A DNA stretch of 62,831 nucleotides from Propionibacteriaceae bacterium (GTDB taxonomy: Bacteria; Actinomycetota; Actinomycetes; Propionibacteriales; Propionibacteriaceae): positions 1-62,831 of the forward strand of contig JAIRYW010000072.1 in assembly GCA_031267645.1 (NCBI GenBank), read 5' to 3'. Of the stretch, positions 3,314-57,603 are shown piece by piece (the first letter of the stretch is position 1; each line of letters starts with the position of its first letter). Under the pieces are notes generated by a model. It did not search any database, was not told the origin of the DNA, and saw nothing but the letters and a program-made list of their open reading frames with translations. The translations under genes were made by a program, and so were the position numbers.

Positions 3314-3332
3314 GCCGTCCCGCACTAGCCGC

Positions 3333-3800: not shown

Positions 3801-3808
3801 GGGGACTC

Positions 3809-3830: not shown

Positions 3831-3903
3831 AAAGCCATCGACCGGGCCCGATTGTGAGGTCGGGACTCGGATTCAGCCCCGGGTCGGGCCGAACTGGGCC
3901 AGT

Positions 3904-4948: not shown

Positions 4949-5461
4949 ATGAGCACCGCCACCCTGCGAACCAACTTGGGCGACATCGTGATCGAGTTGT
5001 TGGACGACCAAGCCCCCAAGACGGTGGCCAACTTCGTCGGCCTGGCCGAGGGCACGAAGGAGCACGTCGACGCCGAGACCGGCCAGTCCAGCGCTAGCCG
5101 CTACTACGACGGCCTGATCTTCCACCGCGTCATCGACGGCTTCATGATCCAGGGCGGTTGCCCCCGGGGCGACGGTCGGGGAGGCCCCGGCTACACCTTC
5201 GCCGACGAGTTCCACCCCGACCTGCGCTTCGACCGGCCCTATCTGCTGGCCATGGCCAACGCCGGACCCGGCACCAACGGCTCCCAGTTCTTCATCACGG
5301 TCTCGCCCACGCCCCACCTCAACCGCAAGCACACCATCTTCGGCCGCGTCGACGACCCGGCCAGCCAAGCCGTGGTGGACGCCATCGCGACGGTTCCGAC
5401 CGGCCTGTCCGACCGGCCCCGGCAGCCGGTCGTGATCGAGTCGGTCGTCATCGCGGCCTGA
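4949..5461 (+). CDS. Peptidyl-prolyl cis-trans isomerase (cyclophilin type)
   Basis: A single-domain cytoplasmic cyclophilin of 170 residues that interconverts cis and trans X-Pro bonds. The signature runs from [19 protein letters not shown] through TFADEF to [16 protein letters not shown], with the catalytic Arg in FHRV and the Gln/Phe substrate-pocket residues in [19 protein letters not shown] completes the fold. The start is ATG 4949 with AAAGGA about nine bases before it. There is no signal peptide, unlike the longer secreted actinobacterial cyclophilins. The length is normal for PpiA/PpiB-like bacterial enzymes; the precise symbol cannot be fixed. Confidence 0.92.
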
Positions 5462-5513
5462 CCTCCGCCGGATCGGACCGCCGTCGTCTGGGGCGGCGGC
5501 GGCCGAGCCAACG

Positions 5514-5546
5514 GTCCGAGCGGCCGGGCCGGCCCCGGCCGCGGAC
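5514..5546 (+). terminator. GC-rich hairpin after the cyclophilin gene
   Basis: GCGGCCGGG (5520-5528) pairs perfectly with CCCGGCCGC (5534-5542) around a five-base loop, with an outer GTCC/GGAC extension (5514-5517 with 5543-5546) and a two-base bulge. No T-tract. It probably separates the cyclophilin gene from the hydrolase genes. Confidence 0.5.
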
Positions 5547-5594
5547 GGTCCCGTACCTTAAGATTCCCTTAGGTCACGGCTGAGAGGCGGGTTG

Positions 5595-6533: not shown

Positions 6534-6560
6534 GGATGGACCGGCGCCACGGCGGCAGCT

Positions 6561-6588
6561 TTGACTTTTCCTGAGTATCGCTTAAGCT
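6561..6588 (+). promoter_or_regulatory. Sigma70-like promoter for the NlpC/P60 gene
   Basis: TTGACT (6561-6566) and TAAGCT (6583-6588) are separated by 16 bases in the gap between the first two hydrolase genes. This suggests that the second hydrolase gene can be transcribed independently. Confidence 0.5.
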
Positions 6589-6644
6589 TTTCTCAGCTTT
6601 GAATGACCGGCTTCCCCGATTGCACGAGTAAGGACGTATCGATC

Positions 6645-7646
6645 TTGTCCCACCTCCGCCGAGCCTCAGCCGGACTCAGCGTCCTGCTCCTCGTCTTGGC
6701 CCTGTTCCAGGTCGGCGCGGGGGTGGCCTCGGCCGATCCCGACAGCGTCAGCCAGGCCAAGGCGGAGCTGACCCGCTTCGAGCAAGAGGCCAGCGAACTG
6801 GCCGAGCAATACGACGCCGTCAACCAGCGCTTGGAGCAGACCAAGCGCGACATGGCCCAGACCGAGACCGACATCGTGGTCCGTCAGGACCAGGTCGACC
6901 GCTTGCGCGGCCAGGTCGCCCAGATCGTGCTCCGGCAGTGGCAGACCAGCGGACTGGGGACCACCGCCGTCCTGCTGCTGAGTGAGAACTCGACCGAGCT
7001 GCTGCAGCAGCTGTCCGCCAATCAACGCTGGACCAGCTCGGCCGAGGACTTGATCCAACACTTCCAAGGCCAGCAGGCCGACCTGGCCGAACTGAAAGCC
7101 AGTCTGGCCGCCGCCGTCCTCCAAGTCCAAGCCGACAACGACCGTCTGGCCGAACTGAAGAGCCAGGCCGACGCCAAGGTGGACGCCGCCGAACGGGCCC
7201 TGAGCCGACTGCAGGCGGCTGAGAACGCCCGCTTGGGCCAAGCCCGCGAGAACACCGCCAGCCTCTCCCAGAGCCGGGCCGCCTTCGTCTCGGACGGGTC
7301 GGCCGCCGCCGTCGCCACCGCCTTCGCCGTCGCCCAGGTCGGCAAACCCTATATCTACGGCGGTAACGGGCCGGCCGGCTACGACTGCTCCGGGCTGACC
7401 CGGGCGGCCTACCTCCAGGTCGGCGTCGCCTTGCCCCACTCCTCCTCCGCCCAATACCGCCTCGGCCAGCCGGTGGCGGAAGCCGATCTGAGGCCGGGCG
7501 ACCTGGTCTTCTACTACTCCGGCATCAGCCACGTCGGCATCTACGTCGGCGGCGGTCTCATCGTGGACGCGGCCAACCCGAGACGGGGCATCCGTTACAC
7601 CGATCTGCATTCGATGCCCTATATGGGCGCCCGACGTATCATATAG
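6645..7646 (+). CDS. Secreted NlpC/P60 peptidoglycan endopeptidase with coiled coil (hydrolase cassette 2)
   Basis: The protein has 333 residues from TTG 6645, which lies ten bases after AAGGA; an ATG at 6603 in the same frame lacks a ribosome binding site but remains possible. A signal peptide ending near VASA is followed by a coiled coil (about 35-215) with LRGQVAQIVLRQWQ, and a C-terminal NlpC/P60 domain (about 225-333). The catalytic Cys is in YDCSGLT and the His in SHVGIYVG; a polar third residue lies near DAANP. The family cleaves the D-Glu/diaminopimelate bond of stem peptides. The overall plan resembles the RipC/PcsB hydrolases, whose coiled coil is controlled by FtsEX; that control is inference here. 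Confidence 0.88.
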   Translation: MSHLRRASAGLSVLLLVLALFQVGAGVASADPDSVSQAKAELTRFEQEASELAEQYDAVNQRLEQTKRDMAQTETDIVVRQDQVDRLRGQVAQIVLRQWQTSGLGTTAVLLLSENSTELLQQLSANQRWTSSAEDLIQHFQGQQADLAELKASLAAAVLQVQADNDRLAELKSQADAKVDAAERALSRLQAAENARLGQARENTASLSQSRAAFVSDGSAAAVATAFAVAQVGKPYIYGGNGPAGYDCSGLTRAAYLQVGVALPHSSSAQYRLGQPVAEADLRPGDLVFYYSGISHVGIYVGGGLIVDAANPRRGIRYTDLHSMPYMGARRII

Positions 7647-7717
7647 ACGAGACTTTTCCGAAGCCCCCCGCCGAGCCCGATCCGTCGTCTCGCCGGCAGA
7701 CCAGCAGAGAGGGAACC

Positions 7718-8758
7718 ATGACAGCCGCTCGTCGCCTCGTAGTGGCTCTGGCCGGTCTGTTGCTGGCCGGGTTGGCCGGGCTGGGTCTGTCCACTCCCTC
7801 GGCGCAGGCCGATTCGACCCAGGAGATCCAGGACCAATTGGTCCGCTACGCCCAGGAGCAGGCCGACCTCGACCGCCAGGTGACAGAGATCCAGCAGCGG
7901 CTGGAGAACACCGAGCACCGGGTGGCTCAGATCGAGGCCGAGCAGGTCGTCCACCGGGCCAAGATCGAGCAGATGCGCGGCCAGGTGGCCCAGGTGGCGC
8001 TGGCTCGCTGGCAATCCCAGGGCATCGATTCGACCATGATCCTGCTGACGGCCGACGACGTCCATCGCATGTTGGGCCAACTCGCCACCACCCAGTGGAT
8101 GACCACCCTGACGACCGACCTGCTGCAGAAATACCAGGCCGAGCAGACCGATCTGAGCGAATTGCAGAGCAGCCTGGAGGCCTCGCTGGAGCAGATCGAG
8201 GCCGACAACGTCCGTCTGACCGAGCTGAGCCGTTTGGCCAACGAGCGGGTGCGGGCCACCCAGCGCCTGCTCAGCCGCTTGAACCCGGAACAGAACGCCG
8301 CCCTCTACCCGGCCGGCTCCCGCCCCTCCGACTCGAAATACGACATCTCCGATCTGACGCCGTCGAGCGGTCTGATCAAACCCCTGGACGCCGCTATCAC
8401 CTCCCCCTACGGCATGCGCCGTCACCCCATCACCGGTCAGTACAAATTGCACGACGGGACTGACTACGGCGCGCCCTGCGGCACCCCCTTGGTGGCGCCG
8501 GCCAACGGCGTGGTGACGCAGGAGGGCTACGTCGGGGGCTACGGCTACCGCCTCTTGATCGACCACGGCGTGATCGGCGGACATCGGATCGTCAGCTCCT
8601 TCAACCACCTCTCCAGCTACGCCGTGCCGGAGGGAGCGACGGTGGACCAGGGCCAGGTGGTGGCCTTCGTGGGAGCCTCCGGGCAGGCCACCGGCTGTCA
8701 CCTCCACCTCATGATCTGGGTCGACGACATCATGGTCAACCCCGTCACCATGGTCTGA
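7718..8758 (+). CDS. Secreted M23 metallopeptidase with coiled coil (hydrolase cassette 3)
   Basis: The 346-residue protein has a signal peptide ending near SAQA, a coiled coil (about 33-200) with MRGQVAQVALARWQ that is homologous to the two preceding proteins, and a C-terminal M23/LytM domain (about 235-346). LHDGTDYGA gives the first zinc His and Asp, GCHLHLMIW the HxH pair, and SPYGMRRHPITG is typical of active members. M23 enzymes cut peptide cross-bridges or stems of peptidoglycan. A strong ribosome binding site (AGAGAGGGAACC) precedes ATG 7718. Retention of all metal ligands suggests an active enzyme rather than a NlpD/EnvC-type activator. Confidence 0.88.
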   Translation: MTAARRLVVALAGLLLAGLAGLGLSTPSAQADSTQEIQDQLVRYAQEQADLDRQVTEIQQRLENTEHRVAQIEAEQVVHRAKIEQMRGQVAQVALARWQSQGIDSTMILLTADDVHRMLGQLATTQWMTTLTTDLLQKYQAEQTDLSELQSSLEASLEQIEADNVRLTELSRLANERVRATQRLLSRLNPEQNAALYPAGSRPSDSKYDISDLTPSSGLIKPLDAAITSPYGMRRHPITGQYKLHDGTDYGAPCGTPLVAPANGVVTQEGYVGGYGYRLLIDHGVIGGHRIVSSFNHLSSYAVPEGATVDQGQVVAFVGASGQATGCHLHLMIWVDDIMVNPVTMV

Positions 8759-10353: not shown

Positions 10354-10441
10354 GGCGGTCGGGTCCGATCGGGCCGGGGCGGGCGCTTGTCACAGCATGA
10401 TCGTATGGCTTGATCGGTCCCAGCGGGCGACTGTGAGCGAC

Positions 10442-10447
10442 TACCCT
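10442..10447 (+). promoter_or_regulatory. -10 box of a likely leaderless DAHP synthase promoter
   Basis: TACCCT followed by six bases and then GTG 10454. This supports 10454 over the in-frame GTG at 10433 and ATG at 10397. Confidence 0.45.
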
Positions 10448-10453
10448 GGTGGC

Positions 10454-11830
10454 GTGTCCGACCTGATCCCGGCTTTGGCCGACCTGCACGCCCTCGAACC
10501 CGCCCAGCAGCCGCAGTACCAGGAGGCCGAGGCAGTCGAGGCCGTTTTGGCCCAACTGCGCCGGCTGCCGCCCCTGGTCTTCGCCGGCGAGTGCGACGAC
10601 CTCAAGAGCCGGATCGCGGCCGCCGCCGCCGGGCGCGCCTTCATCCTCCAAGGCGGCGACTGCGCCGAGACCTTCGACGCCGTCACGGCCAGCTCGATCC
10701 GGGGCCGGCTCAGAGTCCTGCTGTCGATGTCGGTGGTCATGACCTACGCCGCCGAGGTGCCGGTGATCAAGATCGGGCGGATGGCCGGACAGTTCGCCAA
10801 ACCGCGCAGCCAAGACGTCGAGGTGCGTGACGGCGTCGGTCTGCCGGCTTACCGGGGCGACGCCATCAACGGTTTCGAGTTCACCCCCGAGGCCCGCCGA
10901 CACGATCCGGCCCGCCTGCTGCGGGTCTACAACGCCTCCGCCGCCACCCTCAACCTGGTGCGGGCCTTCACCAAGGGCGGTTTCGCCGATCTGCGCTCGA
11001 TGCACTCCTGGAACGCCGACTTCGTGCGCCAAGCCCATGTCTCGGACCGCTACGAGCAATTGACGCGCGAGATCGAGCGCGCTCTGTCCTTCATGGTGGC
11101 GATCGGGGTGGACGGCGGCGAGGCCTTCCGCACGGTCGACTTCTACGCCAGCCACGAAGCTCTCATCATCGATTACGAGCACGCTCTGACCCGGATCGAC
11201 TCCCGCACCGGCGCGCCTTACAACGTCGGCGGACACTTGCTCTGGATCGGCGAGCGCACCCGCCAGATCGGCGGCGCCCACGTCGAGCTGCTGCGTCACC
11301 TGCGCAATCCGCTGGCGGTCAAGATCGGTCCGAGCGCTCGGCCGGACCAGGTCCTGGCCTTGGCCGACGCCCTCGACCCCGAACGGGAGCCGGGCCGGCT
11401 GACCATCGTCTCGCGCATGGGCGCGGCCCAGATCGGCCGGGTCTTGAAGCCGATCGTGCGGGCGGTGGAGGCCACCGGGCGCAAGGTCTGCTGGTACTGC
11501 GACCCCATGCACGGCAACACCTTCGAGTCCGCCACCGGCTACAAGACCCGCTCCTTCGACGACGTCACGGCCGAGGTGGACGGTTTCTTCGACGTCCACG
11601 CCGAACTGGGCACCTGGCCCGGCGGCGTCCACATCGAACTGACCGGCGACGATGTGACCGAATGCGTGGGCGGCGTGGTCGACGTTTCCGAGGCCGACCT
11701 GGCCCACCGCTACGAGACGCTGTGCGACCCGAGGCTGAACCGTCAGCAGTCGCTCGAATTGGCCTTCCGGGTGGCCGAGCGCTTGGGCCAGCTGGACCGG
11801 GTGACCGACTTCACCCCGCTCGACTTCTGA
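10454..11830 (+). CDS. aroG: Class II 3-deoxy-7-phosphoheptulonate (DAHP) synthase, copy 1
   Basis: The 458-residue enzyme condenses phosphoenolpyruvate with erythrose 4-phosphate, the first step of the shikimate pathway. It is class II (plant/mycobacterial type). The metal ligands are visible: Cys in LQGGDCAETF, His in CDPMHGNTF, Glu in HIELTGDDV and Asp in CDPRLNRQQ. Substrate-binding stretches KIGRMAGQFAKPRS and LWIGERTR are intact. The start is GTG 10454, supported by a -10 box six bases upstream and by alignment with the N-terminus of the second copy at 56260. Its position near a PknL-like kinase and polyprenyl synthase matches the order around the mycobacterial enzyme, so this is likely the housekeeping copy. 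Confidence 0.93.
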   Translation: MSDLIPALADLHALEPAQQPQYQEAEAVEAVLAQLRRLPPLVFAGECDDLKSRIAAAAAGRAFILQGGDCAETFDAVTASSIRGRLRVLLSMSVVMTYAAEVPVIKIGRMAGQFAKPRSQDVEVRDGVGLPAYRGDAINGFEFTPEARRHDPARLLRVYNASAATLNLVRAFTKGGFADLRSMHSWNADFVRQAHVSDRYEQLTREIERALSFMVAIGVDGGEAFRTVDFYASHEALIIDYEHALTRIDSRTGAPYNVGGHLLWIGERTRQIGGAHVELLRHLRNPLAVKIGPSARPDQVLALADALDPEREPGRLTIVSRMGAAQIGRVLKPIVRAVEATGRKVCWYCDPMHGNTFESATGYKTRSFDDVTAEVDGFFDVHAELGTWPGGVHIELTGDDVTECVGGVVDVSEADLAHRYETLCDPRLNRQQSLELAFRVAERLGQLDRVTDFTPLDF

Positions 11831-11865
11831 GCCGGCCGCCGGGCCGACGGCCGCGGCGGTGGTCG

Positions 11866-11871
11866 TAGGAT
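11866..11871 (+). promoter_or_regulatory. -10 box of a likely leaderless threonine aldolase promoter
   Basis: TAGGAT followed by seven bases and then GTG 11879. The ATG at 11870 overlaps this box, so if the box is used the ATG cannot be in the transcript. Confidence 0.45.
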
Positions 11872-11878
11872 GAGCGAC

Positions 11879-12907
<1,029 letters not shown>

Positions 12908-12930
12908 CCCAAGGACGGGGCCAGTTCCGT

Positions 12931-13572
12931 ATGATCGTCACCCACCTGGGCCATTCGGCCGTCCTCGTCGAAACCGGCGACCGGCGGCTGTTGATCGATC
13001 CGGGCGACCTCAGCCAGGCCTGGCACGGTCTGAGCGAGTTGGACGCCGTCATCGTCACCCACCAGCACCCCGACCACGCCGACCCGGTCCACCTGCCTGG
13101 TCTGCTGGCCGCCAACCCGCGGGCCCAGGTCCTGGTCGAGCCCAGTTCGTCCGAGCTGAGCGGGCTGCCTCGGGCCCGGCCCCTGGAAGCCGGCCAGAGC
13201 GTCGATCTGGGCTCGGTCCGAATCCGGGCGGTGGGCGGGCGGCACGCCGTCATCCACCGCGACATCCCCCGCATCGGCAATGTCGGCGTCGTGCTGGAGG
13301 CGGCCGGGGAACCTCGCTTCTTCCACCCCGGCGACGCCCTGGAGGCCGTGCCGGCCGGAGTCGACCTGGTCGGATTGCCGGCCCACGGGCCTTGGTGCGC
13401 CATGAAGGAGATCATCGACTTCGCCCGCGCCTTGGCCGCCCCGCGCGGCTTCTTGATCCACGACGGGCTGATCAATCAGCGCGGCTGGCGGCTCAGCTTC
13501 GACCGGCTGGGGCAGATGAGCGGGACCGAACTGGTCGACCTGCGGTCGGGCCAGCCTTGGACGGTGGCCTGA
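12931..13572 (+). CDS. Metallo-beta-lactamase-fold metal-dependent hydrolase
   Basis: The 213-residue protein contains the metal motif THQHPDHAD (HxHxDH) near residue 50, a second His in GGRHAVIH and a metal Asp in FHPGDALE. This fits the UPF0173-like or L-ascorbate-lactonase-like branch of the MBL fold. The substrate is unknown. The start is ATG 12931, preceded by AAGGACGGGG. It lies directly after the threonine aldolase gene and converges with the kinase gene ending at 13597, so it likely closes that operon. The fold assignment is firm; no biochemical role can be read from the context. Confidence 0.85.
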   Translation: MIVTHLGHSAVLVETGDRRLLIDPGDLSQAWHGLSELDAVIVTHQHPDHADPVHLPGLLAANPRAQVLVEPSSSELSGLPRARPLEAGQSVDLGSVRIRAVGGRHAVIHRDIPRIGNVGVVLEAAGEPRFFHPGDALEAVPAGVDLVGLPAHGPWCAMKEIIDFARALAAPRGFLIHDGLINQRGWRLSFDRLGQMSGTELVDLRSGQPWTVA

Positions 13573-13596
13573 GGGGCGGACCGGGGCTGGCCCGGC

Positions 13597-15624
13597 TCAG
13601 GCCATTTTGAGGATGACGGTGGAGCCTTGGGGGGCCCACTCGCCGATCGCGGGATCGGTCCGGGAGGCCAGGCCGAGGGACAAGGCGGAGCTGATCAGGT
13701 ATTCGACTTTGACCTCGAAGCCCGCTCCCTTGAGCTTGGCGGTGGCGTCGCTCAGCGTCATGAATCTGACATCGGGCACCTGGATCATGACTGGGCCCAA
13801 CGACACCACCAAGGCGATGACGTCGCCCCGGTAACCGGAGCCCTGGTCGGGCGACTGCTGGACGATCGAGCCGGCCGGGACGTCGGGCGAGTGCTCTTCG
13901 CTGAGCGTGATCTGGAAGCCGGCCTGGCCCAACCCGGCCTCGGCCGCCTCGCGGGTCTGGCCGACGAAGCTGGGGATCTCGATCGGCTGACGGCCCTTCG
14001 AGATCTCCAGATCGATCACGGTGTCCGGCCGCAGGTCGACCCCGGCCTCCTGCGAGGCCCGTACGACATGGCCCACAGGCACCTGCTCGTCCCACACCTC
14101 CGTCTCTTGGCCGACGGCTAAGTGACTGCTCAAGATCAGCTCCACCGCCTCGTCGCGGGGCAACTCGGCCAAGGTCGGCATCTTATAGCGCTCCGGGCCC
14201 AGCGAGACGTACAAGGTGACTGTGCCGGAGCGCAGGATGGGCTGCTGGTCAGCCGGGTCGCTGCGGGTGACCGAGCCCAGGGGCACGACCTCGTCGTACT
14301 CCTGGCGCAGATCGATCTTCAGCTCGGCTTGGTCCAGGGCGGCCCGGGCCTGGGACTCTGGCAGCCCGGCCACCACCGGCGTCGTGGTCCAACGGCCCCA
14401 TCGCACCCACCAGAAGGCCGAGCCGCCACCGATCAGGCCGAGCAGGAGCAGGACCGACAGGGCGATCAAGCCGCGCCGGCGGCGGACTTGGAGGGGCGGG
14501 CGCGAGATCCGTCGCAAGGGCTTGGCCGGCGGCCCGGCCACGGCCCGACGGACCGCCGGGGCGGGCAAGTCGGAGCGCAGGACCGGCGTCCGTTCGCCGG
14601 ACTCGGCCGGGTCGGGCCCGGCGGTCGATTGGGGCAGGTTCCAGCCGGCCAGCTGGGCGCCGCTCAATTGGCCGTCCACGATGATGGTGGTGGTGGGGTC
14701 GCCCGACTGGCCGCCGCGCAGGGCCCGAGCCAGGGCGGGGTCTTGGCGGACGCCCTGGGCCAAGCGGTGCCTCACCTTGGCCACGGCCTGTTCCAGGGCC
14801 CGTCCGGTGGCCGGCCTAGCCTCCGGGCGACGCGAGGTGCAGGCTTGGACCAAGGCGTCGAGGTAGTCCGGCACCCGTTCGCGCAGGGGGGACGGCAGGG
14901 CCAGCGAGGGCGGTGGCACGTCGACGTGGACGTGTTTGTACAGCACGCTGGCCGGTTCGTCGCCGGTGTGGGGCTTCTGCCCGGTCAGCAGCTCGTACAG
15001 CACGATGCCGGTGGAGTAGATGTCGGAGGCGAAGGTGGCGGTCCCGTCCGTCATCAGCTCCGGGGCCAAGTAGCTGAGCGTCCCCATCAGGACCGACTGG
15101 CTGGCCGAGCTCTGGGCCGAGGTGGCCTTGGCCAGGCCGAAGTCGGTCACTTTGACCTGCCCGGTGTTGGTGATCAGGACATTCTCGGGCTTGATGTCGC
15201 GATGCACCAGACCGGCCTCGTGGGCGGCCGCCAAAGCGCGGGCGATGGCGTCGACGTGGTTCAGCGCCACCAGAGGGGGCAGCGGCGCCGACTGGGCGAT
15301 GATGGAGCGCAAGGACTGGCCGCGGACGTACTCCATGACGATGTACGAGCGGTCGTCGGCGTGGCCTTGGTCGAAGACGGCCACGATGTTGGGGTGGGAC
15401 AAGATGGCGGCGGCCTTGGCCTCGCGGTCGAAGCGGCGCACGTAGTCGGCGTCGCCGACCAGGTTGTCGTGGATGATCTTGACTGCCACGGTCCGGCCCA
15501 GCCGGCGGTCGACCGCCCGGTAGACCACGGCTGTGCCTCCGCGCGCGACCCGGCCGACGAGCTCGTAACGCTCGCCCAACACGGCGCCGACCAGACGGTC
15601 GGACGTCGCGGTCGTCGTGTCCAT
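13597..15624 (-). CDS. pknL: PknL-like serine/threonine kinase with PASTA domains
   Basis: The 675-residue protein combines a eukaryotic-type kinase domain (about 20-275), a linker, one transmembrane helix (about 385-405, LIALSVLLLLGLIGG) and an extracellular part with four PASTA repeats. Kinase motifs are complete: GRVARGGTAVVY, AVKII, HRDIKPENV, VTDFGLAK and YLAPELM. PASTA domains bind peptidoglycan fragments, so the kinase probably senses cell-wall state. Its position between a class II DAHP synthase and a polyprenyl synthase/metF pair matches mycobacterial pknL; PknB lies elsewhere in those genomes. GGGAG precedes ATG 15624 by eight bases. It is divergent from the ThiE-like gene. Confidence 0.9.
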   Translation of the reverse strand: MDTTTATSDRLVGAVLGERYELVGRVARGGTAVVYRAVDRRLGRTVAVKIIHDNLVGDADYVRRFDREAKAAAILSHPNIVAVFDQGHADDRSYIVMEYVRGQSLRSIIAQSAPLPPLVALNHVDAIARALAAAHEAGLVHRDIKPENVLITNTGQVKVTDFGLAKATSAQSSASQSVLMGTLSYLAPELMTDGTATFASDIYSTGIVLYELLTGQKPHTGDEPASVLYKHVHVDVPPPSLALPSPLRERVPDYLDALVQACTSRRPEARPATGRALEQAVAKVRHRLAQGVRQDPALARALRGGQSGDPTTTIIVDGQLSGAQLAGWNLPQSTAGPDPAESGERTPVLRSDLPAPAVRRAVAGPPAKPLRRISRPPLQVRRRRGLIALSVLLLLGLIGGGSAFWWVRWGRWTTTPVVAGLPESQARAALDQAELKIDLRQEYDEVVPLGSVTRSDPADQQPILRSGTVTLYVSLGPERYKMPTLAELPRDEAVELILSSHLAVGQETEVWDEQVPVGHVVRASQEAGVDLRPDTVIDLEISKGRQPIEIPSFVGQTREAAEAGLGQAGFQITLSEEHSPDVPAGSIVQQSPDQGSGYRGDVIALVVSLGPVMIQVPDVRFMTLSDATAKLKGAGFEVKVEYLISSALSLGLASRTDPAIGEWAPQGSTVILKMA

Positions 15625-21976: not shown

Positions 21977-22120
21977 TCGGCCCGCCGATCTCACCGTCCG
22001 TGCGGTCAGGCTTCGGCCTGTCGGACCCCTCCCTGAGGCTCTTCCCCTGCAGCAGGTAGGACTGACAGACCGAAACCTGACGGCGCTGGCGCCGTAAAAC
22101 TATCGACGACTGAGGCCGAC

Positions 22121-45387: not shown

Positions 45388-48075
45388 GTGACGGCCGAGG
45401 CGGAGGGGCCGGGCAAGCTCCTCCTGGTCGACGGGCACTCGATCGCCTTCCGGGCTTTCTTCGCTCTGCCCCTGGACAGCTTCGCCACCTCGACCGGACA
45501 ACCCACCAACGCCGTCTACGGCTTCGTCGCCATGTTGATCGGCCTGCTGCGGGAAGAGCGGCCGACCCACTTGGCGGTGGCCTTCGACGTCTCCCGCACC
45601 ACTTTCCGGACCGCCCTGTACCCGGACTACAAAGCCACCCGGTCGGCCACGCCGCCGGAGTTCATCGGCCAGGTCGACCTCATCAAGGAGGTCTTGACGG
45701 CGCTGCGGGCGTCGGCCTTGGAAGTGGTCGACTACGAGGCCGACGACATCATCGCCACTCTGGCCAGCCAAGCCTCCCAGGCCGGCTTCGAGGTCGTGAT
45801 CTGCTCCGGCGACCGTGATACCTTCCAACTGGTCGACCAGGCCACCACCGTGCTCTACCCCCGCCGCGGGACCTCCGATTTGGCCCGCATGACGCCGGCG
45901 GCGGTGGAGGAGAAGTACGGCGTGACGCCCCAGCGCTACCCCGAACTGGCCGCCCTGGTGGGGGAGAGCAGCGACAATCTGCCCGGCGTGCCCGGGGTCG
46001 GCCCCAAGACGGCCGCCAAGTGGCTGGCCGCCCACGACGGCTTGGACAATCTGCTGGACCAGGCCGACCAGGTCGGGGGCAAGGCCGGCCAAACCCTGCG
46101 GCAACACCTCGACCAGGTCCGCCGCAACCGCCGTCTGAACGCTTTGGTGCGCGATCTCGACCTGCCTTTGGGCTTGTCCGACCTGGCCCGCCGGCCGTGG
46201 GACGCCCAAGCGGTGGCCACCGTCTTCGACGCCCTCCAGTTCCGGGTCCTGCGCCAGCGCTTGAACGAGATCGGCCCGGCCGCCGGGCCGGCCCCGGAAC
46301 CGGTCCCGGTCCGCTCGGCCGTCCGGCTGGAGGCGGGCCAGGTGGCGGGCTGGTTGGAGCGCCACGGCCGGACCGAACGCACCGCTTGGTCGGTCCGCGG
46401 TCGGGCCGACGGCGACGTCGAAGCTTTGGCCTTGGCCGCGGCCGACGACCAGACGGCTTGGATCGAGGTCCACCGGCTGGAGCCGGCCGACGACCGGGCC
46501 CTGGCGGACTGGCTGGGCGACCCGACCCGGCCCAAGGTCGGCCACGCCTGCAAACCGTCGCTGCGCCAGCTCTGGGGTCGGGGCTGGGATCTGGCCTCGC
46601 TGGTCTCGGACACCGAACTGGCGGCCTACCTGGTGCGGCCCGATCAGCGCGGCTACGACCTGGCCGACCTGGTCCAGCGCTACCTGGGCCGTGACCTGAC
46701 GGCTCAGCCGGACCGAGACGACCACGGTCAACCGGCCCTCGACTTCGGGGCCGACCCCGGCCTGGACGACCCGGAGTCCGCCCTGGCCGAGGTGGGAGCC
46801 GTGCTCGACTTGTCCCGGGCCCTGGACGCCGCCCTGGCCGAGGCCGGGGCCAGCCAACTGATGGACAGCGTCGAACTGCCCCTGCAACGCATCCTGGCCC
46901 GGATGGAGGAGACCGGCGTGGCGGTCGACGTCGACCGCCTGGAGGCCCTTTGGCAGGACTTCGACCGGGCCGTCCGCCGGGCCGAGCAAGACGCCCACGG
47001 CGAGGTCGGCCACGCGGTCAACCTGGCCTCGCCCAAACAGCTCCAGGTGGTCTTGTTCGACGAGTTGGACATGCCCAAGACGCGCAAGCTGAAGACCGGC
47101 CACAGCACCGACGCCGAGGCTCTGGAGGGTTTGTACGCCAAAACCGGACACCCCTTCCTGGCCCATCTGTTGGCCTACCGCGACGCCATCCGGCTGCGTC
47201 AGACCATCGAAGGCCTGACCAAGACGGTGGCCGACGACGGCCGTGTCCACACCACCTACCTGCAAACCGTGGCCGCCACCGGCCGGCTCAGCTCGATCGA
47301 GCCCAATCTGCAGAACATCCCCATCCGGACCGCTGCCGGCCGCCAGATCCGTCAGGCCTTCGTGCCGGGAGCTGGTTTCGAAGCCCTGATGACGGCCGAC
47401 TACTCCCAGATCGAGATGCGGGTGATGGCCGACGCCTCGGGCGACCAAGACCTGATCGAGGCCTTCCGGGGCGGGCTCGACTTCCACGCCGTCATGGCCG
47501 GGCACGTCTTCGGAGTCGAGCCGGACCAGGTCACCCCCCAGCAGCGGGCCCGGGTCAAGGCCGTCAACTACGGCTTGGCCTACGGTCTGTCCAGTTACGG
47601 GCTGTCCACCCAGTTGGGCGTCTCGGTGGGCGAGGCGCAACGCTTGATGGACGACTATTTCGCCCGTTTCGGGGCGGTCCGCGATTACCTCCGCTCACTG
47701 GTCGAGCAAGCCCGTCAGACCGGTTTCACCGAGACCCTGTTGGGCCGGCGGCGCTATCTGCCCGATCTGACCTCGACCAACCGGACCCGCCGAGAGATGG
47801 CCGAGCGGATGGCCTTGAACGCCCCCATGCAGGGTTCGGCCGCCGACATCATCAAATTGGCCATGATCAAGGTCAGCCGGCGTCTGGCCGAGTCCGGTCT
47901 GCGCTCGCGTCTGTTGCTGCAGGTCCACGACGAACTGGTCTTCGAGGTGGCGCCGGGCGAAGCCGAGGCCTTGGAGGACTGCGTCCGAACCGAAATGGGC
48001 CGGGCGGCCGATTTGACGGTGCCTTTGGACGTCTCGGTCGGGATCGGTCCGGATTGGGAACGAGCGGCTCACTGA
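45388..48075 (+). CDS. polA: DNA polymerase I
   Basis: The 895-residue repair and Okazaki-fragment polymerase has an N-terminal 5' nuclease domain (about 1-300, LLLVDGHSIAFRAFFALP and VVDYEADDIIATLAS). A degenerate 3'-5' exonuclease-like domain (about 310-490) lacks an evident DxE motif. The polymerase domain (about 500-895) has MTADYSQIEMRVMA (motif A), RVKAVNYGLAYGLSSYGLS (motif B) and LLQVHDELVFEV (motif C). Loss of proofreading residues is usual in actinobacterial PolA. GTG 45388 comes eight bases after pdtaR, with GAGG upstream. The 785-codon open frame on the opposite strand is a GC-bias shadow. Confidence 0.96.
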   Translation: MTAEAEGPGKLLLVDGHSIAFRAFFALPLDSFATSTGQPTNAVYGFVAMLIGLLREERPTHLAVAFDVSRTTFRTALYPDYKATRSATPPEFIGQVDLIKEVLTALRASALEVVDYEADDIIATLASQASQAGFEVVICSGDRDTFQLVDQATTVLYPRRGTSDLARMTPAAVEEKYGVTPQRYPELAALVGESSDNLPGVPGVGPKTAAKWLAAHDGLDNLLDQADQVGGKAGQTLRQHLDQVRRNRRLNALVRDLDLPLGLSDLARRPWDAQAVATVFDALQFRVLRQRLNEIGPAAGPAPEPVPVRSAVRLEAGQVAGWLERHGRTERTAWSVRGRADGDVEALALAAADDQTAWIEVHRLEPADDRALADWLGDPTRPKVGHACKPSLRQLWGRGWDLASLVSDTELAAYLVRPDQRGYDLADLVQRYLGRDLTAQPDRDDHGQPALDFGADPGLDDPESALAEVGAVLDLSRALDAALAEAGASQLMDSVELPLQRILARMEETGVAVDVDRLEALWQDFDRAVRRAEQDAHGEVGHAVNLASPKQLQVVLFDELDMPKTRKLKTGHSTDAEALEGLYAKTGHPFLAHLLAYRDAIRLRQTIEGLTKTVADDGRVHTTYLQTVAATGRLSSIEPNLQNIPIRTAAGRQIRQAFVPGAGFEALMTADYSQIEMRVMADASGDQDLIEAFRGGLDFHAVMAGHVFGVEPDQVTPQQRARVKAVNYGLAYGLSSYGLSTQLGVSVGEAQRLMDDYFARFGAVRDYLRSLVEQARQTGFTETLLGRRRYLPDLTSTNRTRREMAERMALNAPMQGSAADIIKLAMIKVSRRLAESGLRSRLLLQVHDELVFEVAPGEAEALEDCVRTEMGRAADLTVPLDVSVGIGPDWERAAH

Positions 48076-48288: not shown

Positions 48289-49743
48289 ATGACCTCACCC
48301 GCGTCAGAGGCGGCACAGGTCGCGATCGACGACATCAGCTCCCCTGAGGAGTTCCTTGCCGCGGTCGATGCGACGATCAAGTATTTCAATGACGGTGACA
48401 TTGTCTCGGGCACCGTCGTCAAAGTCGACCGGGACGAGGTCCTGCTCGACATCGGCTATAAGACCGAAGGCGTCATTCCGGCCAAAGAACTCTCTATCAA
48501 ACACCATGTCGACCCCTTCGAGGTGGTCCAGGTGGGCGATCAGATCGAAGCTTTGGTGCAGCAAAAGGAAGACAAAGAGGGCCGCCTCATCCTGTCCAAG
48601 AAGCGTGCTCAGTACGAGCGCGCCTGGGGCACCATCGAGAAGGTCAAGGAAGAGGACGGTGTCGTCACCGGCCGGGTCATCGAGGTGGTCAAGGGAGGCT
48701 TGATCATCGACATCGGCCTGCGTGGCTTCCTGCCCGCCTCCTTGGTCGAGATGCGTCGGGTGCGGGACCTGCAGCCTTACGTGGGCCAGGAACTGGAAGC
48801 CAAGATCATCGAGTTGGACAAGAACCGTAACAACGTCGTCCTGTCTCGTCGGGCTTGGTTGGAGCAGACCCAATCCGAGGTCCGGACCAACTTCCTGAAC
48901 CAGCTGCAGAAGGGCCAGATCCGCAAGGGCGTGGTCTCCTCGATCGTCAACTTCGGCGCCTTCGTCGATCTGGGCGGCGTGGACGGCCTGGTCCATGTCT
49001 CCGAGCTGAGCTGGAAGCACATCGACCATCCCTCCGAGGTGGTCGAGGTCGGCCAGGAGGTGACGGTCGAGGTGCTGAGTGTCGAGATGGACCGCGAGCG
49101 CGTCTCCCTGTCCCTCAAGTCGACCCAGGAAGACCCCTGGCAGACCTTCGCCCGACTGCACCAGATCGGCCAGATCGTGCCCGGCAAGGTGACCAAGTTG
49201 GTCCCCTTCGGCGCCTTCGTGCGCGTCGGCGAGGGCATCGAGGGCCTGGTCCACGTCTCCGAGCTGGCCGAGCGCCACGTCGAGATTCCGGAACAGGTCG
49301 TCTCGGTGGGCGACGAGGTCATGGTCAAGATCATCGACATCGAGTTGGACCGGCGGCGCATCTCGCTGTCGCTCAAGCAAGCCAATGAGGGCGTCGACAT
49401 GGCGGCGGACGACTTCGATCCGTCGCTCTACGGCATGACCGCCAGCTACGACGACCAGGGCAATTACATCTACCCGGAGGGCTTCGACCCGGAGACCAAC
49501 GAGTGGAAGCCTGGCTACGAGGAGCAGCAACGCGCTTGGGAGGCTCAGTACGCTGAGGCCCAGGCCCGCTGGATGGCGCACAAGCAGCAAGCTGAGGAGG
49601 CCAAGCAGGCCCAGGTGGCGGCCGTCACGGCCAGTGACGCCTCCAGCAGCTACGTCTCCAACCCGCAGGCCGAGCCGTCTGGCTCGCTGGCCAGCGACGA
49701 GGCCCTGCAAGCGCTCAGGGAGCAGCTCACCACCAACAACTGA
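48289..49743 (+). CDS. rpsA: 30S ribosomal protein S1
   Basis: The 484-residue protein has four S1 RNA-binding repeats (roughly 36-105, 123-188, 209-277 and 294-363). Repeats 3 and 4 contain NFGAFVDLGGVDGLVHVSEL and PFGAFVRVGEGIEGLVHVSE. A Gln/Glu-rich disordered tail follows (about 370-484), containing QQAEEAKQAQVA. Actinobacterial S1 has four rather than six repeats. GGAG lies nine bases before ATG 48289. The gene has its own promoter (48133) and a strong hairpin after the stop. S1 brings leadered mRNAs to the ribosome, which is relevant given the many leaderless-type starts here. Confidence 0.96.
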   Translation: MTSPASEAAQVAIDDISSPEEFLAAVDATIKYFNDGDIVSGTVVKVDRDEVLLDIGYKTEGVIPAKELSIKHHVDPFEVVQVGDQIEALVQQKEDKEGRLILSKKRAQYERAWGTIEKVKEEDGVVTGRVIEVVKGGLIIDIGLRGFLPASLVEMRRVRDLQPYVGQELEAKIIELDKNRNNVVLSRRAWLEQTQSEVRTNFLNQLQKGQIRKGVVSSIVNFGAFVDLGGVDGLVHVSELSWKHIDHPSEVVEVGQEVTVEVLSVEMDRERVSLSLKSTQEDPWQTFARLHQIGQIVPGKVTKLVPFGAFVRVGEGIEGLVHVSELAERHVEIPEQVVSVGDEVMVKIIDIELDRRRISLSLKQANEGVDMAADDFDPSLYGMTASYDDQGNYIYPEGFDPETNEWKPGYEEQQRAWEAQYAEAQARWMAHKQQAEEAKQAQVAAVTASDASSSYVSNPQAEPSGSLASDEALQALREQLTTNN

Positions 49744-49753
49744 GTTAATCGCT

Positions 49754-49796
49754 CGAGTTCGAGGCGACCGTCCCTGGGGCGGTCGCCTCGAACTCG
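49754..49796 (+). terminator. Long perfect hairpin after rpsA
   Basis: A 17-base stem, CGAGTTCGAGGCGACCG (49754-49770) with its exact complement (49780-49796), encloses a nine-base loop. It begins 11 bases after the rpsA stop. No T-tract. It is the strongest terminator-like structure in the window. Confidence 0.75.
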
Positions 49797-49855
49797 TCTG
49801 GGCCGGGAACGGCTCCGGCTTGCGTCCTTCCAGCCGGTCGGTCAGGATCGAGGCT

Positions 49856-50509
49856 GTGCGACGGATTGGTCTGACCGGCCCGATCGCGGCCGGCAAGTCG
49901 GTCGTGGCGGCCCGGCTGCGTGAACTGGGCTTGACTGTGATCGACTACGACCAGTTGGCGCGGCAGGCGGTCGAGCCGGCTGGGCCCGGCTGGGCCCGGC
50001 TGCGGCAGCGCTTCGGGGACGGCTTGCTGGCCTTCGACCGGACCGTCGACCGGGCCGCCCTGGGCCGGCTGGTCTTCGCCGACGCGGGCGCCCGGGCCGA
50101 TCTGGAGGCCATCGTCCACCCCCTGGTGGCGGAACGGGCCGAGGCTTTGGAGGCGGCCGCCGTCCGGGCCGGGGCCGAGGCCGTGGTGCACGACATCCCC
50201 CTGTTGGTCGAGACCGCGCAACAAGACCGCTTCGACCTGGTCTTGGTGGTCCAAGCCCCGCTGGCCACCCGGCTGGACCGTTTGGTCGAACAGCGCGGCT
50301 TGAGCCAGGATCAGGCCCGGCGGCGGATGGCGGCCCAAGCCGACGACGTCGCCCGGGCCGCCGTGGCCGACCACTGCTTCGACGGCGGCGGGACGGTCGA
50401 GGGTCTACGGGCTCAGGTGACGGCCTGGTTCGAGGCTGGGCGGGCCGGGCTCCTCGGTCCGGCCGGGGCGGGGGGAGGCCGGGCCGAGGGCACTGTCACA
50501 GCCCGGTAG
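49856..50509 (+). CDS. coaE: Dephospho-CoA kinase
   Basis: The 217-residue kinase phosphorylates dephospho-CoA in the last step of coenzyme A synthesis. RIGLTGPIAAGKSVVAARL is the P-loop, DYDQLARQAVEPAGPGW and HPLVAERAEAL are family motifs, and VVHDIPLLVET, VVQAPLATRLDRLVEQRGLS and RMAAQ follow. The last 20 residues are a Gly/Ala-rich extension. GTG 49856 is used because homology starts at once; no strong ribosome binding site is visible. It lies between rpsA and uvrB, the usual actinobacterial order. Confidence 0.94.
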   Translation: MRRIGLTGPIAAGKSVVAARLRELGLTVIDYDQLARQAVEPAGPGWARLRQRFGDGLLAFDRTVDRAALGRLVFADAGARADLEAIVHPLVAERAEALEAAAVRAGAEAVVHDIPLLVETAQQDRFDLVLVVQAPLATRLDRLVEQRGLSQDQARRRMAAQADDVARAAVADHCFDGGGTVEGLRAQVTAWFEAGRAGLLGPAGAGGGRAEGTVTAR

Positions 50510-50521: not shown

Positions 50522-52603
50522 ATGCCGACGATCAACGATGTCTCCCGTTGGGTGGCCCCTTTCAAGGTGGTGGCCGACTTCGCGCCTTCGGGCGACCAGC
50601 CGGCGGCCATCGATCAGCTGCAGCGCCGCCTCGAAGCCGGGCAGCACGACGTCGTCCTGTTGGGCGCCACCGGCACCGGCAAGACGGCCACGGTGGCCTG
50701 GCTGGCGGAGCGCTTGCAGCGTCCCCTGCTGGTGATGCAACCGAACAAGACCCTGGCCGCCCAGTTCGCCTCCGAGCTGCGTCAACTCTTCCCTGACAAC
50801 GCCATCGAGTACTTCGTCTCCTATTACGACTACTACCAGCCTGAAGCCTACGTTCCGCAAACCGACACCTATATCGAAAAGGACTCCTCAATCAATGAGG
50901 AAGTCGAACGTTTACGCCACTCGGCCACGTCATCTCTCCTGACACGGCGTGACACCGTAGTTGTCGCCTCAGTTTCTTGCATCTACGGTTTGGGCACACC
51001 AGAGGAATACGTCAACCGCTCAGTTGGGTTAGGTGTCGGCGATCATTTGGAACGTGATGATCTTTTGCGGGCCTTCATCGACATGCAGTATGTCCGCAAT
51101 GACATGGCTTTCAGCCGGGGCACTTTCCGGGTCCGCGGTGACACGGTTGAGATCATCCCGATGTATGAAGAACTGGCTTTACGGATCGAGTTCTTCGGTG
51201 ATGAGATCGAAAGCCTGGCGACTTTGCATCCGTTGACTGGTGAACTGCTACGTCAGGAAGCTTCCGTCAACATTTTCCCGGCATCGCATTATGTCGCCGG
51301 TGAGGAACGGATGCGGGCGGCGATCGCTGGGATCGAAGTGGAACTAGCTGACCGGCTGGAGCGATTAGAACGTGAAAACAAGTTACTTGAGGCGCAACGC
51401 CTGCGTTTACGCACCACCTACGATCTAGAAATGATGCGCCAAATTGGTACCTGTGCGGGTATTGAGAACTATTCACGCCACATTGATGGCCGCGGGCCAG
51501 GCACTCCGCCAAACACTTTGTTGGACTATTTCCCGGAGGATTTCCTGCTGGTGATAGACGAATCCCATGTCGCTGTGCCGCAGATCGGCGCCATGTATGA
51601 AGGCGACATGTCACGCAAACGCACGCTGGTAGAGCACGGTTTCCGTCTGCCGTCGGCACTAGATAACCGGCCGTTACGCTGGGAAGAATTCCTTGAACGG
51701 ATCGGTCAGACGGTCTACCTTTCGGCCACTCCCGGTAATTATGAGTTGTCTTTGTCCGATGGCGTCGTAGAGCAGATCATCCGGCCGACAGGTTTAGTTG
51801 ACCCTCGAGTTGAGGTACGTCAAACTCAAGGCCAAATTGATGATCTACTTCACGAAATCAGATTACGGACCGAACGCCAAGAGCGGGTCCTGGTAACCAC
51901 ATTGACCAAGAAAATGGCTGAAGACCTCACCGGATACCTTTTGGGGCGGGATGTCAAAGTACGCTATCTGCATTCTGATGTCGACACCCTAAAACGGGTC
52001 GAACTGTTACGTGACCTCAGGTTGGGGGAGTTTGATGTACTGGTCGGAATTAACTTGCTGCGTGAGGGACTGGACCTGCCAGAAGTCTCACTAGTCGCCA
52101 TATTGGATGCCGATAAGCAAGGCTTTCTACGGTCAGGTACATCACTTATCCAAACGATTGGCCGCGCCGCCCGGAACGTCTCTGGAACGGTCATCATGTA
52201 TGCCGACGCTGTCACCCCGGCCATGGCGGACGCCATCGGCGAAACTGACCGGCGGCGGGCTAAACAAGTCGCCTACAACACGGCGCACGGCATTGACCCA
52301 CAGCCGATACGTAAACGGATCAGTGACATAACCGAAGCCTTAGCCCGCGAGGAGGTCGACACGGCTGGGTTGCTAGGGTCTGGTGTGTCCGGCCGTAAGT
52401 CCGGGCTGGCGGCTGGCGCCCGGCGGACCGCCGGGCCAAAGGAACCAGCCGTCGTGGGGGATATTCTCAAAGAAATCGAATCCTTGACAGAGCTGATGCG
52501 GTCAGCCGCCAGTCAGCTCAAATTTGAGATAGCGGCCCGCTACCGTGACCAGATCGCTGAACTCAAGACTGAGTTACGCGAGGTGCGTGAAGCCACCCGC
52601 TAG
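50522..52603 (+). CDS. uvrB: UvrABC excinuclease subunit B; composition changes sharply inside the gene
   Basis: The 693-residue nucleotide-excision-repair helicase receives damaged DNA from UvrA and recruits UvrC. Walker A is [14 protein letters not shown]; the beta-hairpin region [13 protein letters not shown], the [17 protein letters not shown] box, LSATPG and the [12 protein letters not shown] helicase motif are intact. A C-terminal UVR domain ([27 protein letters not shown] in pieces) binds UvrC. Protein length and motifs are canonical throughout. The first 260 bases look like the upstream genes (44 GC of 60 at 50641-50700), while sequence from about 50,820 is much less GC-rich (28 of 60 at 50821-50880; 30 of 60 at 51361-51420). 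The reading frame is uninterrupted across the change. Confidence 0.95.
50780..50850. other. Composition and codon-usage breakpoint
   Basis: Counts per 60 bases fall from 41 GC (50701-50760) to 35 (50761-50820) and 28 (50821-50880), and stay low to the window end (32 of 60 at 57001-57060, 33 of 60 at 59701-59760). Upstream lines give 41-47 of 60. The change falls in the codons for one of the most conserved UvrB segments ([18 protein letters not shown]). Confidence 0.8.
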
Positions 52604-52613: not shown

Positions 52614-53138
52614 TCAAGAAGCCTCGGGGATCGTTGTGCTGGCCAGACCGCTGGCGGCTGACACAAGTTGGCTGCGCCGGTCCATTAGGACAGCGTCTTG
52701 CCAGACACCGCCACGCAGGAACAAACCATAACGAGTGCCGATGATCCTAAAACCGTGAGATTCAAGGAGACGTTGAGCGGCTGTGTTGTGTGGCAAGACA
52801 TGAGCTTGCAAAGTCCACAAGCCAGCTTCCTCCGATGAATCAATGATCCCGGCCAACAGCCGGGAACCGAAACCTTGGCCACGGTAGGTGGCCGTCACAT
52901 GAACTGACACGGCCGCCACACCAGACCAGGACGGCCGGGTTGAGACTTGTTCGAGGGCCGCCCAACCGGTGATGCGGCCTTCGCGGCTGGCTGAAACCAA
53001 CCGTTGCCCGGCGATGAAGCGGGCATCCCAGCCTTCCCAAGTCGTCAACTCGTCATCAAGGGTGCTTAGGCTAGCCGCCTCACGGGCGACAGCTGAAACA
53101 TCAGTCCAATCGCTGGGCAGCAACGGGCGGATGTGCAT
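52614..53138 (-). CDS. GNAT-family N-acetyltransferase
   Basis: The 174-residue protein begins MHIRPLLPSDWTDV and has the acetyl-CoA loop VSVHVTATYRGQGFGSRLLAGII (Q/RxxGxG/A motif as RGQGFG) and the C-terminal LPHNTAAQRLLESHGFRIIGTRYG segment. It resembles phosphinothricin-acetyltransferase-like GNATs, whose substrates vary widely; no substrate is claimed. ATG 53138 is chosen because AGAAGGAG lies six bases upstream; the frame stays open to 53219. It converges with uvrB, leaving ten bases between stop codons, and is divergent from uvrA. Its GC content matches the low-GC side. Confidence 0.85.
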   Translation of the reverse strand: MHIRPLLPSDWTDVSAVAREAASLSTLDDELTTWEGWDARFIAGQRLVSASREGRITGWAALEQVSTRPSWSGVAAVSVHVTATYRGQGFGSRLLAGIIDSSEEAGLWTLQAHVLPHNTAAQRLLESHGFRIIGTRYGLFLRGGVWQDAVLMDRRSQLVSAASGLASTTIPEAS

Positions 53139-53267
53139 GGTGGCTCCTTCTCCCGGGGATAGTTCATTATCCCAGGTTGGACAAGGCTCAACGCCAGGAT
53201 GTCTAGCCAATTGGGGCACCTAATCCGCTGCCAGCGAAACTGGTGGCATGGTTTGTTCGTACAGGCG

Positions 53268-56259: not shown

Positions 56260-57603
56260 ATGAATGAGCCGACCGCCGCCCAGTTGGACGCCTATTTGAC
56301 GCGCCCGGCGAAGCAGCAACCCCTCTGGCCTAACGCCGACGAACTGGCCGACGCGACAGCCGTGCTGCGGGCCCGCCCGCCATTGGTCTTCGCTGGTGAA
56401 GCCGATGTTCTGACAGCTAAACTAGCGGCCGCCCAACGCGGTGAGGCTTTTGTGCTGCAAGGTGGTGACTGTGCTGAGATCTTCGTTGAAGCCTCGGCTG
56501 ACCGCATCCGTAACAAAATCCGCACCGTATTACAGATGGCGGTGGTGTTGACCTATGGAGCCTCACTGCCAGTCGTGAAACTAGGGCGGATGGCCGGCCA
56601 ATACGCCAAACCACGCAGCACAGCCACAGAGACACGCGGTGATGTCACTTTGCCGGCTTACCGAGGTGACGCTGTCAACGGTTTTGAGTTCTCTCCAGAC
56701 GCCCGCCGGCCAGACCCGTGGCGCATGGTTGAGGCCTACAACCATTCGTCAGCCACACTCAACCTGATCCGGGCGTTCACCATGGGTGGGTTCGCTGACC
56801 TGCGGTTAGTTCAAGAATGGAACCGCGGCTTTACCGCCAACCCGGCTTACGCCCGTTATGAGGAATTAGCCGCCCAAATCGACAAGGCGGTCCGTTTCAT
56901 GGCGGCCTGCGGCGCCGACTTCGAAGCCCTCAAAATGGTTGAATTTTTCTCCTCCCATGAGGCTCTACTGCTTGACTATGAACGGGCGCTGACCCGGATC
57001 GATTCGCGTGGCGGGCAACCATATGACTGTTCAGCTCACTTCTTGTGGATTGGTGAACGGACACGTTCACCGGAAGGCGCCCACGCCGAACTGCTCAGCC
57101 ATGTGCGCAATCCGCTCGGCATCAAGATCGGGCCAAGCGCCCATGCCAGTGACATTCTTCGGCTGGCGGACAAGCTAGACCCAGCCCATGAACCTGGCCG
57201 GATCAGCCTTATCAGCCGAATGGGCGCGGACCAGGTGCGAGTCATCCTGCCTGGACTGGTACGCGCCGTCCAAGCGGTCCAACGGCCAGTCTTGTGGATG
57301 TGTGACCCGATGCATGGCAACACCTTCACCACCAGCGCTGGTGTCAAAACGCGACGTTTCGACACTGTAATTGAAGAGGTCAGAGGCTTTTTTGAGGTGC
57401 TGCGTGAAGCAGGGGCAGTGCCAGGTGGTTTACATGTCGAGCTGACCGGAGATGATGTCACCGAGGTGATGGGCGGATCAGAAGCGATCGATGACGCCGC
57501 TCTCAGCCGCCGTTATGAAAGTGTGGTTGACCCGCGACTGAACCACCAACAGGCTCTCGAAATGGCTTTCCAGGTGGCCGAACTGCTCCGCTCACCCCGC
57601 TAG
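56260..57603 (+). CDS. Class II DAHP synthase, copy 2
   Basis: The 447-residue second copy of the shikimate-pathway entry enzyme lies on the low-GC side. Metal ligands are complete: Cys in LQGGDCAEIF, His in CDPMHGNTF, Glu in VELTGDDV, Asp in VDPRLNHQQ; LGRMAGQYAKPRS and LWIGERTR are also intact. It differs from copy 1 throughout, so it is not a recent duplicate. A TAGGAT box (56244-56249) lies ten bases before ATG 56260, suggesting a very short leader. Class II second copies occur in secondary-metabolite clusters, but none is visible here. panE follows after 24 bases. Confidence 0.92.
   Translation: MNEPTAAQLDAYLTRPAKQQPLWPNADELADATAVLRARPPLVFAGEADVLTAKLAAAQRGEAFVLQGGDCAEIFVEASADRIRNKIRTVLQMAVVLTYGASLPVVKLGRMAGQYAKPRSTATETRGDVTLPAYRGDAVNGFEFSPDARRPDPWRMVEAYNHSSATLNLIRAFTMGGFADLRLVQEWNRGFTANPAYARYEELAAQIDKAVRFMAACGADFEALKMVEFFSSHEALLLDYERALTRIDSRGGQPYDCSAHFLWIGERTRSPEGAHAELLSHVRNPLGIKIGPSAHASDILRLADKLDPAHEPGRISLISRMGADQVRVILPGLVRAVQAVQRPVLWMCDPMHGNTFTTSAGVKTRRFDTVIEEVRGFFEVLREAGAVPGGLHVELTGDDVTEVMGGSEAIDDAALSRRYESVVDPRLNHQQALEMAFQVAELLRSPR

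Follow-up and report, generated by a model that had tools for sequence, protein, structure and literature searches.

A composition step inside uvrB of a Propionibacteriaceae contig marks a reciprocal join of two lineages, probably made during assembly

Why does the composition of an actinobacterial contig change abruptly within an intact gene? The uvrB in which the change falls is one of two reciprocal hybrids in the same draft genome, each combining sequence of the host genus, g1, with sequence of the g183 lineage (family f61), which belongs to another order. By our estimate, the probability is roughly 0.7 that the contig is a chimeric metagenome assembly joining two bacteria at a short shared sequence. 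The window, 62,831 nucleotides long, is the entire contig C33 of draft genome G000 (2.85 Mb, 76 contigs), which is rated 98.56% complete with 1.53% contamination.

Results

Composition changes as a step inside an open uvrB frame

GC per 1 kb is mostly 0.66-0.75 up to 51 kb and 0.53-0.63 beyond, the upstream exceptions being the kilobase at 38-39 kb (0.62) and the one at 48-49 kb, over rpsA (0.60). The overall drop, from about 70% to 58%, falls within uvrB; counted per 60 bases between 50,340 and 51,539, GC is 35-48 up to 50,819 and 28-39 thereafter. The gene itself (50522-52603, + strand) is an open frame of 693 amino acids that matches TIGR00631 over residues 14-682 with 1035.5 bits, against a cut-off for UvrB of 750.1. 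A GC and codon-choice step near 50,820 and an uninterrupted uvrB frame were both claims of an earlier, sequence-only reading of this DNA, and both are borne out by GC, third-position composition, tetranucleotides and the family match.

Is the change a step or a drift? For GC at third codon positions (GC3), the change point lies at codon 106 (base 50,840), where the value falls from 0.887 to 0.595 with an lnLR of 19.4 and a 2-unit interval spanning codons 84-110. This lnLR exceeds both the maximum of 10.0 reached in 2000 permutations and the best values in the uvrB genes of 11 relatives (1.1-10.4; the top two, 10.4 and 7.0, mark steps at codons 13 and 20); the composition therefore changes as a step, with no drift. 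The tetranucleotide profile is equally abrupt: z-scores correlate with the pooled contig samples of the draft genome at 0.74-0.87 for six 8-kb pieces upstream, versus 0.28-0.30 for three overlapping 8-kb pieces downstream, and the lowest correlation among 65 contig samples (7.9 kb or longer, C68 included) is 0.43. The altered composition runs for 12.0 kb to the end of the contig. The earlier statement that it persists over the remaining 12 kb thus holds as far as the DNA reaches, with the correction that the low-GC stretch stops at 62,831 only because the contig itself stops there.

The following features of the window bear on the step, "native" and "foreign" denoting the g1 side and the g183 side.

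10478..11785, + strand: DAHP synthase copy in the high-GC part of the contig, 58% identical to the copy at 56260..57603
45388..48075, + strand: polA (DNA polymerase I), native side; NCBIfam NF004397, 1019.7 bits
48289..49743, + strand: rpsA (ribosomal protein S1), native side; 80-90% amino acid identity to same-genus loci
49634..50509, + strand: coaE open reading frame, native side, the CoaE domain starting at residue 77-78; PF01121, TIGR00152 and synteny
50522..50809, + strand: first part of uvrB, residues 1-96, native (g1), GC3 0.89; identity and tree
50810-50838, no strand assigned: switch stretch of 29 bp, identical in the uvrB genes of C33 and C68; exact-match comparison
50839..52603, + strand: remainder of uvrB, foreign (g183 of family f61), GC3 about 0.60; identity and tree (100/100)
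52614..53219, - strand: GNAT acetyltransferase, foreign side; PF00583
53248..56175, + strand: second uvrA of the genome, foreign (g183); 83-85% amino acid identity to six g183 genomes, and tree
56260..57603, + strand: class II DAHP synthase, foreign side, second copy in the genome; TIGR01358
57628..58539, + strand: panE/apbA-type ketopantoate reductase, foreign side; PF02558, PF08546
58762..60036, + strand: citrate synthase, foreign side, second copy in the genome; NF004126, 589 bits
60189..61229, - strand: LacI-family regulator, foreign side; PF00356, PF13377
61453..62718, + strand: MFS transporter, foreign side, at the contig end; PF07690

Further upstream, at 21992-22098, the window also holds an mraW RNA motif (RF01746, 54.3 bits) ahead of rsmH.

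A second uvrB is the mirror image of the first

A second full-length uvrB is present in the draft genome, at 12466-10397 (- strand) of the 14.3-kb contig C68 (L016). Apart from its last 2.3 kb, at about 0.59 GC, C68 is high in GC, and its low-GC end carries the start of uvrB, a gene of the mandelate racemase superfamily and a DeoR-type regulator; with the whole of uvrB, this region occupies 10397-14337. Here too the GC3 change point falls at codon 106 (interval, codons 88-114; lnLR 16.3), with the direction reversed, from 0.708 to 0.921. Both uvrB genes are open, full-length frames.

To assign the parts, residues 1-96 and 107 to the end were compared with eight g1 genomes and three g183 genomes. 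The first part of the C33 protein is 74-81% identical to g1 and 66-68% to g183, and its remainder 67-71% and 81.5-85%, respectively; for C68 the first part gives 64-70% to g1 and 83-86.5% to g183, and the remainder 74-83% and 68-70%. By bit score the first part of C33 is nearly tied between g1 (158 bits) and G016, a genome of the same order and another family (159 bits), identity being 81% for g1 versus 74% for G016. Trees of the two parts (23 rows each), which the sequence-only reading had proposed as a check, place them with different lineages. The first-part tree, with 96 columns and strong support on two of its 20 inner branches (nine of 20 in the remainder tree), joins C33 to three g1 genomes (80/90) and C68 to one g183 genome (94/88); in the remainder tree C33 falls with g183 and C68 with g1 (100/100 each). 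By identity, tree and GC3, the two genes are hence reciprocal hybrids, C33 having a g1 first part and a g183 remainder, and C68 a g183 first part and a g1 remainder.

The UvrA proteins point the same way. In a tree of 38 rows made with a quick method, UvrA of C33 groups with g183 (SH-aLRT 100) and that of C59 with the g1 genome G012 (99); named sequences of Kribbella and Nocardioides accompany g1, and g183 shares a group with Actinomyces, Bifidobacterium and Mobiluncus. Together with the uvrB part trees, this makes C33 a contig of two parts from different lineages. Since the genome contains the mirror-image hybrid as well as a uvrA of native lineage and duplicates of citrate synthase and DAHP synthase, the event is a reciprocal cross-join of two uvrB loci, with no replacement of a segment. 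A dgoD-like gene adjoins the start of the foreign uvrB on C68 and served as a further check of lineage. In family f61, where 13 of 18 genomes match, its best match is only 59%, in genus g202; within g183 the best-scoring match reaches 36%, and partial ones, covering about 147 residues, 42-45%. These values neither support nor refute a g183 origin of that flank.

Both hybrids switch at a shared 29-bp stretch

The longest exact run common to the two hybrid uvrB genes, 29 bp (next longest, 19 bp), comprises gene bases 289-317, or codons 97-106 counted from 1, and encodes ten residues, whose letters are not shown here. When all 14.2 kb of foreign DNA (C33, 12.0 kb; C68, 2.2 kb) was matched exactly against 859 kb of host sequence (the left of C33, the right part of C68, C59 and samples of other contigs, about 30% of the genome, with 5.4 kb masked), no run was longer than this one, and only two others reached 19 bp or more, at 21 and 19 bp. 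Breakpoint scans of the DNA put the switch of C68 at gene bases 273-300, overlapping the stretch, and that of C33 at bases 379-497, 60-180 bases beyond it, an offset that perhaps reflects GC dragging the comparison. Scans of the protein gave residues 92-104 for C68 and 105-136 for C33, the latter reaching the stretch only at its edge. Within the resolution of these tests, both genes switch at the common 29-bp stretch.

How unusual is a shared run of this length? Across 24 g1 x g183 pairs of uvrB genes the longest common runs measure 14-41 bp, and by this sequence comparison 29 bp is ordinary between the two lineages. The exact stretch occurs only in the loci of the two hybrids and in none of the other loci examined, many of which are without uvrB. 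A 54-base pattern running from the stretch into the foreign side had no exact match in viral contigs, a collection unsuited to chromosomal DNA. The site of the crossover fits a k-mer graph and short-homology recombination equally well, and location alone does not discriminate between them.

The foreign segment and the native locus

The genes downstream of uvrB, among them uvrA, DAHP synthase, panE and citrate synthase, give the foreign 12 kb the look of ordinary housekeeping chromosome. In four of six g183 loci a GNAT gene likewise separates uvrB from uvrA (53-65% amino acid identity); the other two have no uvrB match on the stretch read. The foreign uvrA is 69% identical to that of C59 and the foreign citrate synthase 50% identical to a copy on C63; of the duplicated genes (uvrA, citrate synthase and DAHP synthase), the lineage was tested for uvrA only. 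In the 14.2 kb visible, short open reading frames being outside the scan, we found no mobility, integrase, replication or transfer gene among the seven genes after uvrB on C33 and the two at the low-GC end of C68. A plasmid origin of the low-GC segment was considered and rejected: none of 312 plasmid records covers 80% of its first 8 kb, and identity is 60-80%.

On the native side, polA, rpsA, coaE and uvrB follow one another in the same order in the five same-genus loci that hold all four. On C59, the native-lineage uvrA is succeeded by uvrC and rapZ, and then by an open reading frame that we take to resemble yvcK. C68 probably leads into C59, because the N-terminal part of a family-3 glycosidase at the end of C68 (3-710) and a C-terminal part on C59 (L118; 14800-15834) stand at facing ends and run in the same direction; the contig-end comparison found no overlap between these two ends. 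Via this link, the native locus would probably read coaE-uvrB-(sugar genes)-uvrA-uvrC.

Contig ends and the search for further foreign DNA

The contig ends give an indication of how the draft genome was made. We compared 150 ends, with two right ends left out and both ends of C35 and of C69 masked. Overlaps of exactly 119 bp were found for 23 pairs; there are six other overlaps, of 30-98 bp, two of which are an end overlapping itself. Because of the 23 exact overlaps, and given how assemblers of this type cut contigs, the pattern suggests a short-read k-mer assembly with a final k of about 119, likely preceded by rounds with smaller k. The left end of C33 shares a 119-bp overlap with C4. Neither the low-GC right end of C33 nor that of C68 overlaps any compared contig end of the bin.

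We also surveyed about 0.8 Mb of other contigs by composition only, with tetranucleotides at left ends and GC at 60 right ends. C68 aside, the sampled sequence held no second clear chimera and no further long stretch that was foreign-like in both low GC and signature; the left ends of 72 unmasked contigs have a GC of 0.639 or more. The survey is not conclusive, because some windows and ends deviate. Some 2-kb windows on C21, C6 and C58 lie below 0.60 GC; the dips on C21 and C6 are shorter than 3 kb, with GC back up within the sample, and in the samples of C1, C31 and C58 GC is low over a wider span (0.55-0.73). By tetranucleotides, the contig samples closest to the foreign 12 kb are the left ends (1-8000) of C1 (L044; 0.49) and C46 (L088; 0.46), at GC values of 0.64 and 0.65. 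At about 5500-7500 of C21 (L064), a contig of about 0.69 GC, a dip to 0.48 surrounds an open reading frame of 271 amino acids (6454-7269) with no Pfam match. No Rfam match at gathering score was found in the samples of C21, C6, C1, C31 and C58.

Discussion

How might an assembler produce two mirror-image genes? One parental uvrB would have come from a high-GC g1 bacterium, which forms the bulk of the bin, the other from a g183-lineage bacterium of lower GC. At the 29-bp stretch, the two paths leading in and the two leading out would have been paired wrongly in short-read assembly, yielding C33, native first and foreign for the rest, as well as C68, foreign first and native for the rest, and each hybrid contig would then have been binned with its native majority. 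Lineages, reciprocity, switch point, second gene copies and overlaps are matters of observation; that the wrong pairing took place in the assembler and not in a cell, we infer. We favour an assembly error because the foreign DNA is housekeeping chromosome from another order, holds no mobility gene among those examined and is joined by no further clearly foreign contig in the samples. The switch, moreover, sits on the single longest exact match between the foreign and host sequence compared. Against an assembly error, a shared stretch of 29 bp falls far short of the apparent final k, and both products require that correct spanning reads were ignored in both organisms; we know of no documented routine mechanism by which mispairing at 29 bp gives both products. 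Nor does such misjoining by this assembler seem frequent, as no second clear chimera appeared in the roughly 0.8 Mb surveyed by composition. Passages in two papers describe chimeric contigs arising from k-mers common to different species as a recognised failure of short-read assembly (PMC7299287, PMC3100316), and misassembly in metagenomes is treated in parts of two others (PMC9795473, PMC10174551). Like inter-species chimeric contigs, C33 and C68 would be joined at a conserved stretch of two community members and binned with the majority organism, with no biology at the join; unlike them, the present case comprises both reciprocal products and a shared stretch much shorter than k.

Could the exchange instead have happened in a cell? 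A bacterium that had acquired g183 DNA with uvrB, GNAT and uvrA might have undergone a single crossover at the 29-bp stretch, leaving two hybrids, either by Campbell-type integration of a circle, with the island then flanked by hybrid uvrB genes, or by inversion between uvrB copies. Inversions between homologous genes are known, tuf and the rRNA operons being examples. Such events resemble our case in yielding a reciprocal pair of hybrid genes whose single crossover point lies in a shared stretch, and the openness and full length of both frames fits them, as does the support longer than 29 bp that an assembler with a final k of about 119 would normally want. Removing the foreign DNA would also leave a plausible native arrangement, rpsA-coaE-uvrB (C33, C68) followed, across the probable link to C59, by uvrA-uvrC. 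Such events differ from the present case in that the two uvrB genes here are only about 70% alike and come from different orders, with 29 bp in common and a foreign segment of ordinary chromosomal appearance. A crossover would require a circular or previously inserted piece of at least 14.2 kb of another order's chromosome, and it would imply two copies each of uvrA, citrate synthase and DAHP synthase in one cell; it sits poorly with the nine genes examined beside the two uvrB genes, which include no integrase or replication gene, with the plasmid comparison (0 of 312 records) and with bin samples that held no further clearly foreign contig. For a Campbell-type event, one 29-bp point is indeed common to both hybrids, and continuity from the right end of C33 to that of C68 was not found. 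An in-cell crossover is in our judgement unlikely, though not negligibly so, and we retain it because 29 bp is so much shorter than the final k and because no other clear join was sampled. Improbable, in turn, is the fuller claim of recombination, in a living actinobacterium, with DNA from another order at 29 bp within uvrB, which left two intact hybrid uvrB genes and a second uvrA, uvrB thus being a landing site of near-minimal homology for foreign chromosomal DNA. In the open-licence literature, no title among the 10 of 875 matches listed for uvrB as an integration site, nor either of the two for a mosaic or hybrid uvrB, concerns the present case.

Two simpler accounts fare far worse than either the favoured assembly chimera or the crossover. 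The sequence-only reading had offered, side by side, homologous replacement of at least 12 kb and a chimera joined through a conserved stretch; the latter gains a join located to 29 bp, and the former is contradicted by the native uvrB remainder on C68. The reciprocal nature of the swap lay outside the view of that reading. In the manner of mosaic genes produced by replacement, the lineage switches in frame within one conserved gene. Unlike in such genes, the complementary hybrid and the native remainder are kept, together with a native-lineage uvrA on C59. Replacement eliminates the native remainder and never creates a second hybrid, and we therefore rejected the simple replacement of a 12-kb native segment by a foreign one; provided that C68 and C59 come from the same organism as C33, it is contradicted, and we regard it as very improbable. 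A normal shift of composition within one genome and lineage, as in a highly expressed or slowly ameliorating region, could appeal to GC dips elsewhere, such as that over rpsA. It is refuted by the protein trees, which put the two uvrB parts, and likewise the two UvrA proteins, in different families, and by a tetranucleotide signature altered for 12 kb, so that we give it practically no weight.

What follows from the favoured assembly chimera? Most likely, the composition step is no new biological feature. If it is an artefact, 12 kb with a second uvrA, citrate synthase, DAHP synthase, panE and an MFS transporter are miscredited to the species, and both deduced UvrB proteins are fictitious, in a genome rated 98.6% complete with 1.5% contamination. 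Chimeras of this kind might be recognised by seeking, in the same bin, the mirror-image hybrid and the longest exact match. If the crossover is true, it represents a reciprocal exchange between orders at 29 bp of identity, with two open uvrB frames kept; it would then bear on the minimal homology needed between distant bacteria, and in each UvrB the first 100 residues and the remainder would have separate evolutionary histories.

Two further uvrB arrangements came to light among the comparison genomes. In G845, uvrA follows coaE after a 1.6-kb gap on contig C144 (L311; 881-5918), a contig with no uvrB match, and uvrB lies on C57. The g183 genome G871 (95% complete, 3% contamination) has two uvrB genes, on C127 and C170 (L320 and L310), that are 84% and 82% identical to the C33 remainder, and both look g183-like in both parts.
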